Origin: Candidatus Magasanikiibacteriota bacterium
GTDB taxonomy: Bacteria; Patescibacteriota; Patescibacteriia; Magasanikbacterales; GWA2-37-8
Length of the DNA stretch: 32,635 bases
NCBI GenBank assembly: GCA_023246715.1
Contig: JAHFHZ010000003.1
Span: 29,703-62,337 of the forward strand
Reading direction: 5' to 3'
This document shows, one piece after another, positions 9,008 to 15,777 of the stretch (within the stretch, counting starts at the first letter, position 1; the number at the start of each line of letters is the position of its first letter). The position numbers and the translations under genes were made by a program. The notes under the pieces were generated by a model, which was not told where the DNA came from, searched no databases, and was given only the letters and a program-made list of their open reading frames with translations.

Positions 9008-10882
9008 ATGATTACCTCCGCAGAACTTCGCCAAAAATATCTTAATTTTTTTGAATCTAAGGGCCACACGATTGTTCCCTCTGCCTCGCTGATTCCCGAT
9101 AACGATCCAACCGTGCTTTTTACCACGGCTGGCATGCACCCGCTGGTCCCTTTTCTGCTTGGTCAAAAACATCCCAGCGGCACACGCTTAGCAAACGCTC
9201 AAAAATGCATCCGTACGCAAGATATTGATGAAGTGGGCGATAATCGGCACGAAACCTTTTTTGAAATGCTTGGTAATTGGTCGTTGGGTGATTACTTTAA
9301 AACCGAAGCGATCCAATGGAGTTGGGAATTTTTGACCAGCAAGCAGTGGCTTGGCTTGGATCCACGAAAATTAGCGGTAACAGTTTTTGGTGGCGACTCC
9401 CGGGTGCCAGCGCTGCCAAAAGACAGTGAAGCAGCCCAAATATGGCGCGAACAAGGTGTTGCCGAACATAAAATTACCTACCTCGAAGGTGGTGTTTTTG
9501 AAAGCAAAAAAAATTGGTGGGGGCCGGCCGGGCAAACCGGCCCCTGCGGCCCGGATACGGAGATGTTTTATTGGATGGGTGAAACCGAATTTCCACCCGA
9601 GGAGAGCAACCCGGGCAACGATGAAGACAATTGGCTGGAAATCTGGAACGACGTTTTCATGCAATACAACAAAATAGGCGACGGCCAGTACCAACCCTTA
9701 GCGCAAAAAAACGTCGATACCGGCATGGGTCTGGAGCGTACGATGATGGTGTTTAATGGTTTTGCGGACGTTTTTCAGATAGATACCTTCTGGCCGCTCA
9801 TTCAAAAAATTCAAAATATTTCCGGCCGCGAATATATCGAAAATAAAGACGTTACCCGGTCAATGCGGATAGTGGCCGACCATGTGCGTACTGCCACCAT
9901 GATAATGGGCGACGACCGTGGGGTCAGCCCCAGTAACGCGGATCAGGGTTACATTGTGCGCCGCTTAATTCGTCGCGCCGTGCGCCACGGGCGTTTGCTC
10001 GGCATTAAGGAAAACTTTTGCAGCCAGATTGCCGAAGGTGTAATTGAAATTTTTAAAGATATCTATCCCGAACTGGTTCGGAATCATGAATTTATCATCA
10101 CCGAATTAGCCCACGAAGAAAGAAATTTCCGCAACACAATCGAGCAGGGGTTAAAAGAATTCGAAAAACTGGTAAACGGTTTTCGCCTGGCGTTCGAAAA
10201 AACCGGGCAACAAATCAAAGAAATTTCCGGTAAGCATGCTTTTAAGCTTTACGACACCTATGGTTTTCCGCTGGAAATGACTCAGGAATTAGCTCTTGAA
10301 AATGGGCTGGCAGTGGATGTAAATGGATTTGACCTCGCTTTCAAAACTCACCAGGAAACCTCTCGCGCCGGTGCCGAACAAAAGTTTGTTGGCGGGCTGG
10401 CCGATCACAGCGAAATGTCCACTAAATACCATACCGCCACGCACTTGTTGCACGCCACCTTACTAAAAATTCTTGGTCCTCACGCCACCCAGAAGGGGAG
10501 TAACATCACGCAGGAACGTATGCGTTTTGACTTTGCCTATCCGCAAAAATTAACCCCGGAACAAATTACACTAGCCGAAGAGTTGGTCAACGCCGCAATT
10601 ACTCGGGATTATCCAGTGACTTGGCAAGAAATGAGTTTTGAAGAGGCGCGAACCAAAGGAGCAATTGGATTATTCGAAGACAAATACCAAGCTAGAATTA
10701 AAGTATACACGGTGGGTGATCCCGAAGCGCCCGCTACCGCTGACCCCGCCACAACCACCTACAGCCGTGAAGTCTGCGGCGGGCCGCACGTGGAACACAC
10801 GGGCACGATGGGCAAGTTTAAAATCATCAAAGAAGAAGCTGTCAGCGCGGGTGTTCGGCGGATTAAAGCTATTCTTGAGTAA
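9008..10882 (+). CDS. alaS: Alanyl-tRNA synthetase lacking the C-terminal domain
   Basis: AlaRS charges tRNA-Ala. The class II catalytic core is complete at the N-terminus (LRQKYLNFFESKGH, FTTAGMHPLVPFLLG, RHETFFEMLGNWS, DTGMGLERTMMV). The editing domain carries its zinc/active-site set H475, H479 (HTATH), C590 and H594 (CGGPH). The protein ends 30 residues after that, at VRRIKAILE, for a total of 624 residues against about 875 in E. coli. The oligomerisation coiled coil and the C-Ala (DHHA1) domain are missing. The stop is followed after 4 bases by another gene and the downstream frame does not resume, so this is a genuine short form, not a frameshift. C-Ala-less AlaRS forms are known in other reduced systems. 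Confidence 0.95.
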   Translation: MITSAELRQKYLNFFESKGHTIVPSASLIPDNDPTVLFTTAGMHPLVPFLLGQKHPSGTRLANAQKCIRTQDIDEVGDNRHETFFEMLGNWSLGDYFKTEAIQWSWEFLTSKQWLGLDPRKLAVTVFGGDSRVPALPKDSEAAQIWREQGVAEHKITYLEGGVFESKKNWWGPAGQTGPCGPDTEMFYWMGETEFPPEESNPGNDEDNWLEIWNDVFMQYNKIGDGQYQPLAQKNVDTGMGLERTMMVFNGFADVFQIDTFWPLIQKIQNISGREYIENKDVTRSMRIVADHVRTATMIMGDDRGVSPSNADQGYIVRRLIRRAVRHGRLLGIKENFCSQIAEGVIEIFKDIYPELVRNHEFIITELAHEERNFRNTIEQGLKEFEKLVNGFRLAFEKTGQQIKEISGKHAFKLYDTYGFPLEMTQELALENGLAVDVNGFDLAFKTHQETSRAGAEQKFVGGLADHSEMSTKYHTATHLLHATLLKILGPHATQKGSNITQERMRFDFAYPQKLTPEQITLAEELVNAAITRDYPVTWQEMSFEEARTKGAIGLFEDKYQARIKVYTVGDPEAPATADPATTTYSREVCGGPHVEHTGTMGKFKIIKEEAVSAGVRRIKAILE

Positions 10883-11163: not shown

Positions 11164-11664
11164 ATGTTTACCAAATTACTTCATCATCTCTGGGCCGCGC
11201 GTGATCAGTTTATACGCTATTTTGTAATTGGCCTCGGAGCGTTAGCCCTGGATCTGGCCACGCTTTTTCTCCTTAAAGAATATGTTCATGTATCACCAGT
11301 AATTGCCGTAATTATAAATCAAATTATTGTCCTGAATTACGTTTTTTTTCTTAATAAGTACTGGTCTTTTAAGGCCTCCGGTCTTACTCATCAGCAAATG
11401 ATGCGTTTTGCGCTGGTGGCCTTTGGCAATTATCTCATCAGCGTCAGTTGGATGTGGCTATTTACCAGACACTGGCACCTGGGTTTTATTCGTCCCGAAC
11501 GGTATTATTATCTACTAGTGCGACTGGCCAATATTGCTTTATCTGTGGCCTGGAACTTTATAATTTACAAGCAATGGGTTTACACTGGCACGACACAGTT
11601 AAAAAACCCCGAAAATATAGGGGTTTCAGCACAAAATGGTGGTGTGGGAAACCACTTGACTTAA
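11164..11664 (+). CDS. GtrA/DPMS-like membrane protein
   Basis: This 166-residue protein belongs to the GtrA family. These four-helix membrane proteins are thought to help move polyprenyl-phosphate sugars across the membrane or to anchor polysaccharide synthesis. The family pattern is clear: FIRYFVIGLGALALDLATLFLL (helix 1), then helix 2 with the NYVFFLNKYWSFK loop, helix 3 around MRFALVAFGNYLIS, and helix 4 ending in SVAWNFIIYKQWVY. The last 25 residues form a polar tail whose DNA can fold into a hairpin (AAACCCC/GGGGTTT, 11604-11626). The infA promoter overlaps the final codons (11656-11664). It may serve the polysaccharide genes further downstream. Confidence 0.85.
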   Translation: MFTKLLHHLWAARDQFIRYFVIGLGALALDLATLFLLKEYVHVSPVIAVIINQIIVLNYVFFLNKYWSFKASGLTHQQMMRFALVAFGNYLISVSWMWLFTRHWHLGFIRPERYYYLLVRLANIALSVAWNFIIYKQWVYTGTTQLKNPENIGVSAQNGGVGNHLT

Positions 11665-11684
11665 TTTTTCGCTTCCGTTATACT
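11656..11684 (+). promoter_or_regulatory. Promoter of infA and the ribosomal-protein operon
   Basis: TTGACT (11656-11661) and TATACT (11679-11684) are separated by exactly 17 bases. They predict a start near 11691, about 19 bases before the infA ATG. This is the best -35/-10 pair in the window and fits a highly expressed operon. Confidence 0.7.
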
Positions 11685-11709
11685 GGATGCGTACGTTATT
11701 TCTTTCTGA

Positions 11710-11928
11710 ATGTCTAACTCAAAAGATTTCATCGAAGTCAAAGGAGCGGTTATCGAGCTTTTGCGGGCAGGAACCTTCCGCATATCGCTTGAAAGCGGGC
11801 AAATTATCGTTGCTCATCTGTCTGGTAAGATGCGTTTAAACAAGATTCGCCTCTCTATCGGGGATCAGGTGAAGGTAGAAATGAGCCCGTACGATCTGAC
11901 CAAAGGAAGAATCACGTTCCGCTTTTGA
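11710..11928 (+). CDS. infA: Translation initiation factor IF-1
   Basis: IF-1 (72 residues) is the S1-type OB-fold factor that blocks the ribosomal A site during initiation. The sequence shows [11 protein letters not shown], then [20 protein letters not shown] and the closing [12 protein letters not shown], matching the family over its whole length. It opens the operon behind a strong promoter. It ends in TGA, which shows that UGA is a stop codon here. A 150-base structured untranslated segment separates it from rpmJ, where most bacteria have only a short gap. Confidence 0.96.
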
Positions 11929-11944
11929 CCAATCCAATTTCAAG

Positions 11945-12043
11945 AATATCAACCAGTGCGGTGTAGTCTGGCTCCCATACCATCTCGAAAGATGTCCTTG
12001 GTATGTGGCTCCGGGCGCTGATATCGCGGCAGTGGTTGGTATT
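11945..12043 (+). ncRNA. Candidate structured leader RNA between infA and rpmJ
   Basis: An 11-pair closing helix joins 11945-11955 to 12033-12043 (AATATCAACCA with TGGTTGGTATT, one G-U). It runs into a T-rich stretch (12042-12050). Inside it a second hairpin pairs CATACCA (11976-11982) with TGGTATG (11999-12005), capped by TCT-CGAA-AGA and carrying a 6-base bulge. Direct GGCTCC copies flank it (11970-11975 and 12007-12012). A third small stem may use GCG/CGC near 12015-12026. A closed junction followed by Ts is the usual layout of an attenuator or ribosomal-protein leader. S4, encoded downstream, is the natural candidate ligand. No known family is recognised. Confidence 0.5.
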
Positions 12044-12065
12044 TTTTCTTACCTAAAAAGGTTTT

Positions 12066-12071
12066 TATAAT
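12066..12071 (+). promoter_or_regulatory. TATAAT box directly before rpmJ
   Basis: A perfect -10 hexamer ends 7 bases before the rpmJ ATG, so a transcript started from it would be leaderless. The -35 region is only T-rich. It could be a secondary promoter that bypasses the upstream structured RNA. Confidence 0.3.
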
Positions 12072-12078
12072 CTTGCGT

Positions 12079-12192
12079 ATGAAAGTTCGCGCTTCAGTCA
12101 AAAAAATTTGTTTAAAATGTAAACTGGTACGCCGCAAAGGTCGTTTACAGGTTATTTGCGAAAATACCAAGCATAAACAACGTCAGGGTTAA
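12079..12192 (+). CDS. rpmJ: 50S ribosomal protein L36
   Basis: L36 is 37 residues, starting [15 protein letters not shown] and ending KHKQRQG. The zinc ligands are all there: C11, C14, C27 and H32, so this is the zinc-binding (C+) form. It sits in its usual place between infA and rpsM. No Shine-Dalgarno-like sequence precedes the ATG, while a TATAAT does, which fits possible leaderless expression. Confidence 0.93.
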
Positions 12193-12223
12193 ATTTTCTG
12201 AAATAGTTAACCACTACCCACCT

Positions 12224-12610
12224 ATGCGTATTGCGGGCACAACCATTCCGAATGAAAAGCGAATCGTTATCGCTTTGAATTATATTTACGGCATCGGACC
12301 GACGCTTTCCAAAAAAATTCTCGAAACCGCCGGAATCGACGAAAACATCCGTACCAAAAATCTGACCAACGAACAGCAAGATAAATTGCGCGCTATTACG
12401 GAAAAAACCTACCGAACAGAAGGCGACTTGCGTCGTGAGATTCAAAGCAATATCAAACGGCTTAAAGATATCAAATGCTACCGTGGTTTACGCCATATGA
12501 AACACCTGCCGGCACGTGGCCAGCGTACCAAAACCAATTCGCGCACCGTGCGCGGAAACGTGCGTAAGACCATGGGCAGCGGCCGCAAGCCAGGTGGCCA
12601 AAAAACGTAA
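12224..12610 (+). CDS. rpsM: 30S ribosomal protein S13
   Basis: S13 (128 residues) sits in the head of the small subunit and contacts the P-site tRNA and the large subunit. Family segments are continuous: RIAGTTIPNEKRIVIALNYI with YGIGPTLSKKIL (the helix-turn-helix-like part), then CYRGLRHMKHLPARGQRTKT and the basic C-terminal tail that reaches the tRNA. The length is normal. It begins the rpsM-rpsK-rpsD-rpoA-rplQ order of the classical alpha operon, 31 bases after rpmJ. Confidence 0.96.
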   Translation: MRIAGTTIPNEKRIVIALNYIYGIGPTLSKKILETAGIDENIRTKNLTNEQQDKLRAITEKTYRTEGDLRREIQSNIKRLKDIKCYRGLRHMKHLPARGQRTKTNSRTVRGNVRKTMGSGRKPGGQKT

Positions 12611-12644: not shown

Positions 12645-13100
12645 ATGAATGATTCCCAGACTCCCGTAGCCGCTAAAACGGCCACAGCCGCCGAAGTCAA
12701 GGCGCCAGTTGCCAAAGCCGACGGACGTAACAAAAAGAAGCGCCAACTGCGGGCGGTACCCCGGGGTAACGCCTACGTACAGGCCAGTTTTAACAATACG
12801 ATCGTCACCATCACCGATCCGAACGGTAATGTGCTTGGCTGGTCTTCCTCTGGCGTGACCGGTTTCAAAGGCCCAAAAAAAGCCACTCCGTACGCGGCCA
12901 CCATGGTAGTAAAGGATCTGTTGACCAAAATCGTTTCCTACGGAGTAAAAGAAGTCAGTGTCTTTGTAAAAGGTATCGGCGGTGGTCGTGAAAGCGCCAT
13001 CCGTGCCTTACACGCTAACGGTCTGAATGTGATGTCTATTACTGATACAACTCCCATCCCACACAACGGTTGTCGGCCACCAAAACGTCGCCGCGTCTAA
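12645..13100 (+). CDS. rpsK: 30S ribosomal protein S11 with N-terminal extension
   Basis: S11 forms part of the small-subunit platform near the mRNA exit. The core begins near residue 40 ([19 protein letters not shown]) and continues through [20 protein letters not shown] and [13 protein letters not shown] to the basic end [11 protein letters not shown], all typical. The first 38 residues are an Ala-, Lys- and Thr-rich low-complexity extension, giving 151 residues in place of about 129. The only nearby ATG is at 12645, 34 bases after rpsM. A shorter form would need a non-ATG start. The role of the extension is unknown. Confidence 0.95.
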
Positions 13101-13136: not shown

Positions 13137-13748
13137 ATGGCCCGAGATTTACGCCCCAAACACAAACTTTGCCGCCGCTTTGGTGAAAAGCTGTGCGATT
13201 CTGTGAAATGCCCGGTTAAACGCCGTAGCTACCCGCCAGGCATTCATGGCCCGCAGAAAAAGAGCAATAAAAAAGTTTCTGCCTACGGTAAACAGTTGCT
13301 CGAAAAACAAAAAGTAAAACGTATTTACGGTATTTTGGAACGTCAATTTTCTAATTACGTCACCGAAGCTTCCCGTAAAAAAGGTGATACCGGTAAATTT
13401 TTGGTAGAAATGCTGGAATCCCGGCTCGATACCGTAATTTTCCGTTTGGGCTTGGTTTCTACCCGCCCGGCCGCGCGCCAGGCTGTTGGCCACGGCCATT
13501 TTATGGTCAACGGTCGTCGCGTGACCATTCCATCCTTACGCGTTAAAATCGGCGACTTAATTACCTTGCGTGAACGATCCAGAAAGAGTCCGCTGTTTGC
13601 CTCTGCCACCGAACGTTTAGCCAAATTTGAAGCTCCGGGTTGGTTGGATTTGGACAAAAAAAATCTGTCCGCCAAAGTGTTGAATGCACCCACGCTTGAA
13701 GATGCAAACTTCAACATCAAACCAATCATTGAATTTTATTCTCGCTAA
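13137..13748 (+). CDS. rpsD: 30S ribosomal protein S4
   Basis: S4 (203 residues) nucleates 16S rRNA folding and is the known autoregulator of the alpha operon in E. coli. The N-terminal domain has KHKLCRRFGEKL and YPPGIHGP. Cysteines at 12, 20 and 25 recall the zinc-binding form but do not make the full four-ligand set. The S4 RNA-binding domain is at about 90-155 (MLESRLDTVIFRLGL, ARQAVGHGHFMVNGRRV). The C-terminus is normal. It lies 36 bases after rpsK and 12 bases before rpoA. If this operon is feedback-controlled, this protein is the first candidate to bind the structured RNA upstream of rpmJ. Confidence 0.96.
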   Translation: MARDLRPKHKLCRRFGEKLCDSVKCPVKRRSYPPGIHGPQKKSNKKVSAYGKQLLEKQKVKRIYGILERQFSNYVTEASRKKGDTGKFLVEMLESRLDTVIFRLGLVSTRPAARQAVGHGHFMVNGRRVTIPSLRVKIGDLITLRERSRKSPLFASATERLAKFEAPGWLDLDKKNLSAKVLNAPTLEDANFNIKPIIEFYSR

Positions 13749-13760
13749 TTTAGAATTTGT

Positions 13761-14585
13761 ATGGAACATTTTCTTCTCCCTTCCAAAGTGGTCTTTGAAG
13801 AAGATGCGGGGGGCAAATCCGGAACCGTCACCATTACACCGTGCTTTCACGGCTACGGAACCACGCTTGGCAATGCGTTTCGCCGCGTATTGCTTTCTTC
13901 GCTCCCAGGCTCTGCGGTTGAATACTTCAAAATAAAGGGTGTTCAACACGAATTCAGCACTGTCGAGGGCGTGCAGGAAGATGCCGTGGAACTGATGTTG
14001 AATCTTAAACAGTTAGCTGCGAAAATTTTTACCGACGAAATTGTTGAACTGCGCCTCACCAAAAAAGGCCCTGGCCCGGTTACTGCCGGAGACATCACAC
14101 CGGATTCCCGCGTGGAAATAATCAATAAAGATTTGGTTATCGCAAACCTTACCAATACCAAAACACTGGATATGGAAATCGGCCTCGGTCAGGGAAAGGG
14201 CTACAAACCAACCGAAGAAAAAAACAAGCAAAATTACGACCTTGGAACCGTAGTGACCGATTCAGTTTACACTCCGATTTGCGATGTTGGGTACAAAGTA
14301 GAATTTACCCGTGTCGGCGATATCACTAACTACGAGAAGCTCACCATTAATATTGAAACCAACGGGACAATCACCCCCCGAGAAGCTGTTCGCCAGAGCG
14401 CCGAAATTCTTACCAATCACCTGAATATTATTTTGGAGGAGGCCGGCAAAGAATCTATCGAAATGCCCTCTATGGCTGCCGCAGAATCAACTGAAGAAAC
14501 TGTTGAAGAATCTGGCGGAGCCGACGATGGTGATGGTGGCGAAGAAAAAAAAGAAAAATCTAAAAAAATTTCTAAAAAGAAATAA
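13761..14585 (+). CDS. rpoA: RNA polymerase alpha subunit without C-terminal domain
   Basis: Alpha forms the dimer on which beta and beta' assemble. The N-terminal domain is complete to about residue 232: ITPCFHGYGTTLGNAFRRVLLSSLPG, then the VEGVQEDAVELMLNLK and DLVIANLTN region, and the last helix AVRQSAEILTNHLNIILEEAG. The alpha-CTD, which binds UP elements and activators, is absent. In its place is a tail of about 40 residues, first acidic (ESTEETVEESGGADDGDGGE) and then lysine-rich (KKEKSKKISKKK). Only 32 bases separate the stop from rplQ, so no CTD is hidden behind a frameshift. Total length is 274, against about 315-330 in most bacteria. Confidence 0.95.
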   Translation: MEHFLLPSKVVFEEDAGGKSGTVTITPCFHGYGTTLGNAFRRVLLSSLPGSAVEYFKIKGVQHEFSTVEGVQEDAVELMLNLKQLAAKIFTDEIVELRLTKKGPGPVTAGDITPDSRVEIINKDLVIANLTNTKTLDMEIGLGQGKGYKPTEEKNKQNYDLGTVVTDSVYTPICDVGYKVEFTRVGDITNYEKLTINIETNGTITPREAVRQSAEILTNHLNIILEEAGKESIEMPSMAAAESTEETVEESGGADDGDGGEEKKEKSKKISKKK

Positions 14586-14617: not shown

Positions 14618-14968
14618 ATGCGACACCGTAGTCACAAAATAACCCTTGATCGAAAAAGCCCGGCCCGCAAGGCGCTCCTGACCAATTTGGTTGAGAGTTT
14701 GATTTTGTACGAAAAAATGGTTACCACCAAGGCCAAAGCCCGCGCCACCCGTTCATTGGTGGAACGCCTAATTACCAAGGCCAAAACCAACACCCTGGCC
14801 ACTCGACGCGAGTTGCTTGCCACGTTGTTCACCAAAAACGCGGTCAACAAGCTTCTCGAAGAACTTGGACCTCGCTACAAAGAGCGAGCTGGGGGTTACA
14901 CCCGCGTGGTGCTTATGAATAAACGCAAGGGTGACGGTGCCGAAGAAGCTTTGATTGAATTTGTTTAA
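14618..14968 (+). CDS. rplQ: 50S ribosomal protein L17
   Basis: L17 (116 residues) lies near the peptide exit tunnel of the large subunit. The sequence follows the family: RHRSHKITLDRKSPARKALL, then NLVESLILYEKMVTTKAKA, the REL(L)ATLF segment and a C-terminal GGYTRVVLMNKRKGDGAEEALIEFV. Its place directly after rpoA is the standard one. It is followed by rplM after 14 bases with no terminator between, so the L13/S9 pair is read in the same operon. Confidence 0.96.
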   Translation: MRHRSHKITLDRKSPARKALLTNLVESLILYEKMVTTKAKARATRSLVERLITKAKTNTLATRRELLATLFTKNAVNKLLEELGPRYKERAGGYTRVVLMNKRKGDGAEEALIEFV

Positions 14969-14982
14969 CCGACTTTTTCCGT

Positions 14983-15366
14983 ATGAGACGTTCAACACAC
15001 GAAATCGACGCTGCCGGGTTGCCGCCAGGCAGATTGGCAACGCGTATTGCCACGCTTTTGATCGGCAAACACAAGCCTAAGTTTCAACCCCACCTAGATT
15101 TAGGTGACCGGGTCATTGTGTTGAATGCCGAACAGGCCCGTTTTACCGGCAAAAAGGCCGAACAAAAGCTGTATCGCCACCACTCCATGCACCCCGGCGG
15201 TTTAAAGGAAATTCCGGCCAAAAAGATGATCGCCGAAAATCCCCGCGAAGTTTTGCGCCACGCGGTATATAAAATGTTGCCCAAAAATAAACTGCGCGAT
15301 CAACGAATTTTGCGCCTGAAATTTGCCGTCAAGAGCAAAACCGCGGAAAAAAATAAACTATCCTAA
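14983..15366 (+). CDS. rplM: 50S ribosomal protein L13
   Basis: L13 is an early-assembly protein of the large subunit. Typical blocks are IDAAGLPPGRLATRIATLL, then PHLDLGDRVIVLNAEQARFTG and the YRHHSMHPGGLKEI segment, and HAVYKMLPKNKLRDQ. At 127 residues it is slightly shorter than the usual 140-145. The N-terminal tail before the core is clipped. It forms the conserved pair with rpsI, which starts 3 bases after its stop. Confidence 0.95.
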   Translation: MRRSTHEIDAAGLPPGRLATRIATLLIGKHKPKFQPHLDLGDRVIVLNAEQARFTGKKAEQKLYRHHSMHPGGLKEIPAKKMIAENPREVLRHAVYKMLPKNKLRDQRILRLKFAVKSKTAEKNKLS

Positions 15367-15369
15367 ATT

Positions 15370-15777
15370 ATGACCAAAATTAACGCTTCCACCAAAGAAA
15401 ATCGCGCTGTTGGCCGCCGCAAATCCGCTGCCGCTCGAGTGCGCCTGGAAAAAGGTAAAGGAACCATCGTGGTGAATGGGATGCCGTACGAAAAGTATTT
15501 CCCATACTTCCAATTACAAGAAATTGTCATGAGTCCGCTCAAAATGCTTGGCAAAGAAAAGGATTACGACATATCGGTCAAAGTACAGGGTGGTGGAAAA
15601 AATGGCCAAGCCCGCGCCGTACAGCTCGGCATTGCCCGTGCTTTGGTAATCTGGAATGAAGAATTCCGAAAAACCTTAAAAACTCTTTCACTACTTACTC
15701 GCGACGCCCGCGTCAAAGAACGCAAAAAACCGGGTCTCAAAAAAGCCCGCCGCGCCCCACAGTGGAGCAAGCGCTAA
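15370..15777 (+). CDS. rpsI: 30S ribosomal protein S9
   Basis: S9 (135 residues) reaches the P site with its C-terminal tail. Visible signatures are AVGRRKSAAARVRLEKGKGTI with VNG, the GGGKNGQARAVQLGIARAL segment, and the C-terminal DARVKERKKPGLKKARRAPQ ending in SKR, the conserved tail that touches tRNA. It is the last gene of the operon, and a clear terminator follows within 20 bases. Confidence 0.96.
   Translation: MTKINASTKENRAVGRRKSAAARVRLEKGKGTIVVNGMPYEKYFPYFQLQEIVMSPLKMLGKEKDYDISVKVQGGGKNGQARAVQLGIARALVIWNEEFRKTLKTLSLLTRDARVKERKKPGLKKARRAPQWSKR

Follow-up and report, generated by a model that had tools for sequence, protein, structure and literature searches.

Between infA and rpmJ, the ribosomal-protein operon of this Candidatus Magasanikiibacteriota genome holds a gap of 150 bases, which raises the question of what the gap encodes and whether it controls the genes behind it. 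The initial annotation of the window (the whole 32,635-nucleotide stretch analyzed here, whose coordinates are used throughout) read the gap as a structured untranslated RNA, possibly an attenuator, that senses S4 or another ligand and acts on everything from L36 to S9 without affecting infA. NCBIfam confirmed the identity of every gene between infA and rpsI, both included, and the layout is as follows:

11656-11684, + strand: candidate promoter of sigma-70 type, TTGACT-17-TATACT, directly ahead of infA (agrees with the consensus at 10 of 12 positions)
11710-11928, + strand: infA (IF-1), first gene, upstream of the putative attenuator (NCBIfam TIGR00008, E 2e-27)
11929-12078, + strand: infA-rpmJ gap, 150 bases
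12079-12192, + strand: rpmJ (L36), first gene behind the putative attenuator (TIGR01022, E 1e-20)
12224-12610, + strand: rpsM (S13) (NCBIfam)
12645-13100, + strand: rpsK (uS11), the proposed ligand and third gene behind the leader (TIGR03632 uS11_bact, E 1e-50)
13137-13748, + strand: rpsD (S4), the ligand suggested by the initial annotation (NCBIfam)
13761-14585, + strand: rpoA (NCBIfam)
14618-14968, + strand: rplQ (L17) (NCBIfam)
14983-15366, + strand: rplM (L13) (NCBIfam)
15370-15777, + strand: rpsI (S9) (NCBIfam)

The site upstream of infA was the best in the 5.5 kb scanned, in a scan whose total of 8 sites was not above the 6.1 found by chance, and is a candidate for the promoter of the whole operon. 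Two neighboring genes appear shortened. The rpoA product has 274 amino acids, and the best model covers only the first 247 of its 320 positions before a charged low-complexity tail, so that the protein seems to lack the alpha C-terminal domain. An alanyl-tRNA-synthetase-like reading frame at 9008-10882, recognized by eye, encodes 624 amino acids, fewer than a typical AlaRS, and may have no C-terminal part.

The fold of the infA-rpmJ gap

The gap folds with a minimum free energy of -48.7 kcal/mol, compared with -34.3 +/- 3.5 kcal/mol for dinucleotide shuffles (z -4.1), and none of 200 shuffles folded as well. Its outer part can be divided as follows:

11942-11955, + strand: 5' arm of the closing (putative terminator) helix (fold; covarying pairs)
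12033-12046, + strand: 3' arm of the same helix (fold; covarying pairs)
12042-12047, + strand: U-tract of the putative intrinsic terminator (conserved in homologues)

The elements named in the initial annotation are present. The closing helix pairs 11945-11955 (AATATCAACCA) with 12033-12043 (TGGTTGGTATT) in 11 pairs, one of them G-U, as first described, and RNAfold adds three more, for 14 in all (11942-11955 with 12033-12046). The T-rich stretch into which the helix runs occupies 12042-12047. The internal hairpin at 11976-11982 and 11999-12005 (CATACCA/TGGTATG) is there, as are the direct GGCTCC copies at 11970-11975 and 12007-12012. The CGAA cap ascribed to that hairpin closes a separate one, CATCT/AGATG, which is present but cannot form fully together with the CATACCA/TGGTATG hairpin because the two overlap by two bases. 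Both the CGAA hairpin and the GGCTCC repeats sit in a region that differs between genomes. The informative part, absent from the initial description, is a conserved core at 11956-11967 and 12015-12031.

An Rfam search of 11700-12230 returned no match at E <= 10, the S4 leader of the alpha operon included, in line with the earlier remark that the element was not recognized as a described family; the core resembles helix 23a of 16S rRNA instead. The gathering threshold likewise gave nothing at the locus, and across the whole window Rfam matched only tRNAs. We also considered whether the GUGUAGCUC...GAGC part is tRNA-like and dropped the idea, as the Rfam scan placed no tRNA there.

Conservation and distribution of the element

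The infA locus was taken from relatives, being present in 89 of 95 genomes, and the infA-rpmJ gap was inspected in about 80. By covariance model, 61 of the order's 86 genomes carry the element between infA and rpmJ: 22 of 25 in the genome's own family, 39 of 46 in a second family, and 0 of 15 in six others. Two further structural variants, in G039 and G080, carry an extra hairpin and were recognized by eye. These variants (loci L035 and L037, genus g29) form a three-way-junction version with the extra hairpin inserted 3' of the core, and their minimum-energy fold is the 16S-like pairing described below. In a class-wide covariance scan the element was confined to two families of Candidatus Magasanikbacteria, apart from one match (G164) that we rejected as an ordinary hairpin terminator. 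A looser pattern of the core gave scattered matches over 380 genomes of the phylum, and only six loci, all from this order, lay near rpmJ, rpsM or rpsK. Matches to the pattern outside Patescibacteria (Halomonas, Rhodococcus and others) have no flanking helix, look like chance, and were discarded.

The element is single-copy in the source genome, and in all 60 homologues it lies between infA and rpmJ, always upstream of rpmJ-rpsM-rpsK-rpsD. The consensus layout is AAUAUCAACCA - GUGCGGUGKAGY - variable hairpin - RYNNNGAUAUCGCGGCA - GUGGUUGRUAUUUUUU. In 22 sequences we counted 38 double-change cells, against 14.5 in shuffles, with none of 500 shuffles reaching as high; this signal was lost when the partner was shifted by 1 to 3 columns, and covariation backs both the closing helix and the hairpin. 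Three genomes of the carrier families without the element have infA beside rpmJ, separated by 22 nt (G012), 8 nt (G036) and about 50 nt (G077). In other families of the order, two foldable infA-rpmJ gaps of 272 nt (L048, G025) and 220 nt (L049, G026) have no helix 23a core and could hold unrelated leaders.

A conserved, covarying structure in a constant position upstream of ribosomal-protein genes marks this element, with little doubt, as a genuine cis-regulatory leader. The structured cis-element claim of the initial annotation is thereby borne out, by the fold and by covariation across relatives, and its attenuator idea gains support from the stem, which resembles a terminator and ends in a U-tract within an operon of ribosomal proteins. 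That annotation had named two tests of the idea: a search for a conserved helix or covariation among relatives, where both were found, and an Rfam search, which assigned no known class; neither refuted it.

Resemblance of the core to 16S helix 23a, and the candidate ligand

What the leader might recognize is suggested by its core, the parts of which are listed here with the E. coli numbering and helix 23a pairing scheme (681-689/698-709) that we take to apply to it:

11959-11967, + strand: 5' strand of the helix 23a-like core, CGGUGUAGU, E. coli 681-689 (part of a 10-nt word shared with the genome's own 16S gene, L130:755-764)
11966-12016, + strand: variable apical hairpin in place of the 690 loop (base pairs covary)
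12015-12026, + strand: 3' strand of the helix 23a-like core, GCGCUGAUAUCG, E. coli 698-709 (12-mer shared with 16S)
12026-12031, + strand: conserved GCGGCA, enabling the alternative register A (conservation, register folding)

The genome's own 16S gene reads GCCGGUGUAGUC-GUAAUAA-GCGCUGAUAUCGGC at about 750-790 of L130. The longest word common to the leader and the whole 16S gene is GCGCTGATATCG (12 nt, window 12015, 16S 772), and the second longest is CGGTGTAGTC (10 nt, window 11959, 16S 755); together they are the two strands of one 16S helix, in the correct order. The 12-mer occurs twice in the genome, in the leader and in 16S helix 23a, and nowhere else. Nearly all invariant nucleotides of the core are 16S helix 23a bases: at the equivalents of 682-685, 687-688 and 703-708, between 58 and 60 of the 60 leaders agree with 16S, and the equivalents of 700-702, which we take to be the bulge of helix 23a, vary freely over the 60. 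Position 686, a U in 16S, is U in 36 of the 60 leaders and G in 24, a variation without change in 16S, whose helix 23a core is nearly constant among relatives; no joint change of leader and 16S could be seen within genomes. The 690 loop is absent from the leader copy and a hairpin of variable length stands in its place.

Could the likeness be a coincidence, the core binding some small molecule or protein that we have not considered? A motif of about 13 fixed bases will occasionally arise by chance, many leaders differ at 686, and word-length matches are modest in other genomes. The two strands, their order, the internal loop and the variable 3-nt bulge nevertheless all agree, and only 9 of 150,000 shuffles of the source genome's leader gave a comparable pair of matches, which makes coincidence decidedly improbable. 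The longest-word test picked out helix 23a in only 20 of 41 genome pairs, so that beyond this genome the argument depends on the invariant core and not on word length. Taken as a whole, the comparison indicates that the leader is very probably an rRNA mimic of helix 23a.

Two features of 16S rRNA itself were seen along the way. The 690 loop, usually GGUGAAAU, is CGUAAUAA or AGUAAAAU in most genomes of the order, so that by our alignment the residue matching G693 is A. The 16S gene L130 is 1733 nt long, about 200 nt above the usual length, which suggests an insertion.

The core can pair in two ways. Register A (UGC/GCA and GUG/CGC around a 2x8 internal loop) is favored by nearest-neighbor energies, by 3.6 kcal/mol on average, over the 16S-like register, which consists of 680-710, 681-709, 682-708, 683.707, 684-706 and 685.705. 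The outer pairs of the 16S-like register are possible in all 60 leaders; its both-side changes are 681-709 C-G to U-A in four sequences and 682-708 G-C to A-U in one; and it is kept where register A is lost, in G066 (L043) and in the G039 and G080 variants. On these three grounds the 16S-like register is probably a functional fold. Register A has a compensatory change in one sequence (L068). That the RNA switches between the registers is conjecture. In its fullest form, a scheme we hold to be possible but doubtful, the free RNA would sit in register A (UGC.GGUG with CGC.GGCA) and uS11 would trap the helix 23a register (681-709, 682-708, 683.707, 684-706, 685.705), rebuilding the rRNA helix in mRNA; the alpha operon of these bacteria would then have uS11 as its master regulator in place of S4.

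As to the ligand, published work names a "uS11-binding site in h23" (PMC10901742), a "helix 23/S11 interaction region" (PMC4371863) and a "uS11m-h23 module" (PMC9892005). The nucleotide contacts that we used are mitochondrial: Asn104 of uS11m touches base 358, which is paired non-canonically with 336 (PMC10285412), and from the extruded base of bridge B7a and the adjoining pairs we infer that 358 and 336 correspond to E. coli 706 and 684. The same mitochondrial structure counts against uS11 in one respect, since uS11m also makes contact with the backbone at three residues (PMC10285412) that our mapping places in the 690 loop, a loop that the leader does not have.

A further point against uS11 is that bS18, bS21 and IF3 touch helix 23 too. 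Among the proteins encoded in the operon, uS11 is the one on helix 23, and the core thus reproduces the rRNA site of a protein whose gene, rpsK, lies in the same operon; for this reason we regard uS11 as the probable ligand.

The same attenuator might instead respond to S4, as the initial annotation proposed, or to another operon protein such as S13, L36 or L17. Control of this gene cluster usually falls to S4 (PMC10931766), four new S4 leaders include two on rpsM-rpsK-rpsD (PMC7247131), and rpsD lies downstream of the leader. The core, however, corresponds to 16S helix 23a, the published uS11 site and not that of S4, and the GUAA common to known rRNA-like S4 leaders falls outside it. S13, L36 and L17 are not known to bind helix 23. 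We therefore do not favor S4, and consider this whole group of ligands unlikely.

Putative mode of control and comparison with known systems

The stable stem is followed at once by a U-tract, as in an intrinsic attenuator, and this is conserved: all 60 homologues have at least 6 T in an 8-nt window. Between the stem and the start of rpmJ lie 14 to 132 nt (median 35 over the 60 copies), a spread that speaks against the stem simply blocking the ribosome site. If uS11 acted on translation, with the stabilized stem by the rpmJ start hindering 30S loading and the U-tract incidental, the 12 of 60 genomes with 14-22 nt between the end of the stem and the rpmJ ATG would be accounted for, and in those 12 a translational effect is possible; yet the spacing is 23-132 nt in the other 48 and the U-tract is kept in every copy, and we think this explanation improbable.

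Another possibility is that the stem is a constitutive terminator of an infA transcript, that rpmJ and the genes after it have a promoter of their own, and that the rRNA-like core has some other role (a uS11 decoy, or RNA stability) or merely decorates the terminator. The stem is very stable, and the source genome has a TATAAT at 12066-12071, 7 nt before the rpmJ ATG and without a -35 match, which if used would yield a nearly leaderless rpmJ transcript. Over the 60 stem-rpmJ spacers, though, -10-like motifs are not enriched (23 of 60, compared with 27 in shuffles), 12 of the spacers leave no room for a promoter, and a plain terminator has no need of an almost invariant internal loop. This arrangement, too, appears improbable. 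Given the variable spacing and the lack of -10 enrichment, regulated termination fits better than either start-site occlusion or a private promoter, and transcription attenuation is the likely mode of control.

In the mechanism that we propose, the element would be the leader of an rpmJ-rpsM-rpsK-rpsD-rpoA-rplQ-rplM-rpsI transcript. An excess of uS11 over nascent 16S rRNA would lead the protein to bind the helix 23a-like core, a copy of the stem and internal loop that lie beneath the 690 hairpin. Bound uS11 would hold the whole stem together and so favor the intrinsic terminator, which consists of the closing helix with its U-tract. Transcription would then end near 12047, turning down L36 to S9, and infA, upstream of the terminator, would be spared; such control of L36 to S9 without infA, which had been suggested at the outset for S4 or another ligand, fits the gene layout. 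We infer the binding of uS11, the direction of the effect, and the choice of transcription over translation as the controlled step. Against the scheme, the stem might be stable enough to terminate without any ligand. On balance we lean towards an autogenous uS11 leader that attenuates L36 to S9 and spares infA, a reading drawn from comparative sequence analysis.

The open-access literature yielded nothing relevant on S11 autoregulation or on ribosomal-protein leaders in candidate phyla. A 2020 survey reporting 20 new leaders lists as ligands L2, L4, L13, eL15, L17, L20, L31, S4, S6:S18, S15 and S16, with S11 absent (PMC7247131), and a 2024 review of extraribosomal functions treats uS11 only as an alpha-operon gene under S4 control and as a neighbor of uS7 (PMC10931766). 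If confirmed, the leader would add uS11 as a new regulatory ribosomal protein, would be rRNA mimicry of a very literal sort, and would show how an organism of the candidate phyla whose genome is very small tunes its ribosome genes.

Among known systems, the E. coli alpha-operon leader and other S4 leaders (Gammaproteobacteria, Firmicutes, Fusobacteria, Clostridia) are likewise cis leaders of the rpsM-rpsK-rpsD-rpoA-rplQ cluster. The E. coli leader folds as a pseudoknot, exerts its control on translation and does not mimic rRNA (PMC10931766, PMC7247131), whereas the Magasanikbacteria leader is one long stem with a helix 23a-like core and a putative terminator, placed upstream of rpmJ. The mode of action proposed here resembles that of the B. 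subtilis L20 (infC operon) and L10(L12)4 (rplJL) attenuators, in which a ribosomal protein on an mRNA leader favors an intrinsic terminator; the L20 leader also mimics rRNA, as ours appears to do for helix 23a, but the presumed ligand and the RNA are different, no antiterminator pairing was identified in the Magasanikbacteria leader, and it is a member of neither family. S15 leaders, including archaeal ones (PMC7247131), likewise copy the rRNA site bound by the product of a downstream gene; theirs is the S15 junction or a G-C/G-U site, while the leader described here seems to copy helix 23a, with two strands almost exact. With 16S helix 23a (the 690 hairpin) itself the leader shares the core nucleotides, the non-canonical internal loop and the position of the 3-nt bulge, and it differs from that helix in its flanking stem and in the replacement of the apical 690 loop by a hairpin of very variable length.
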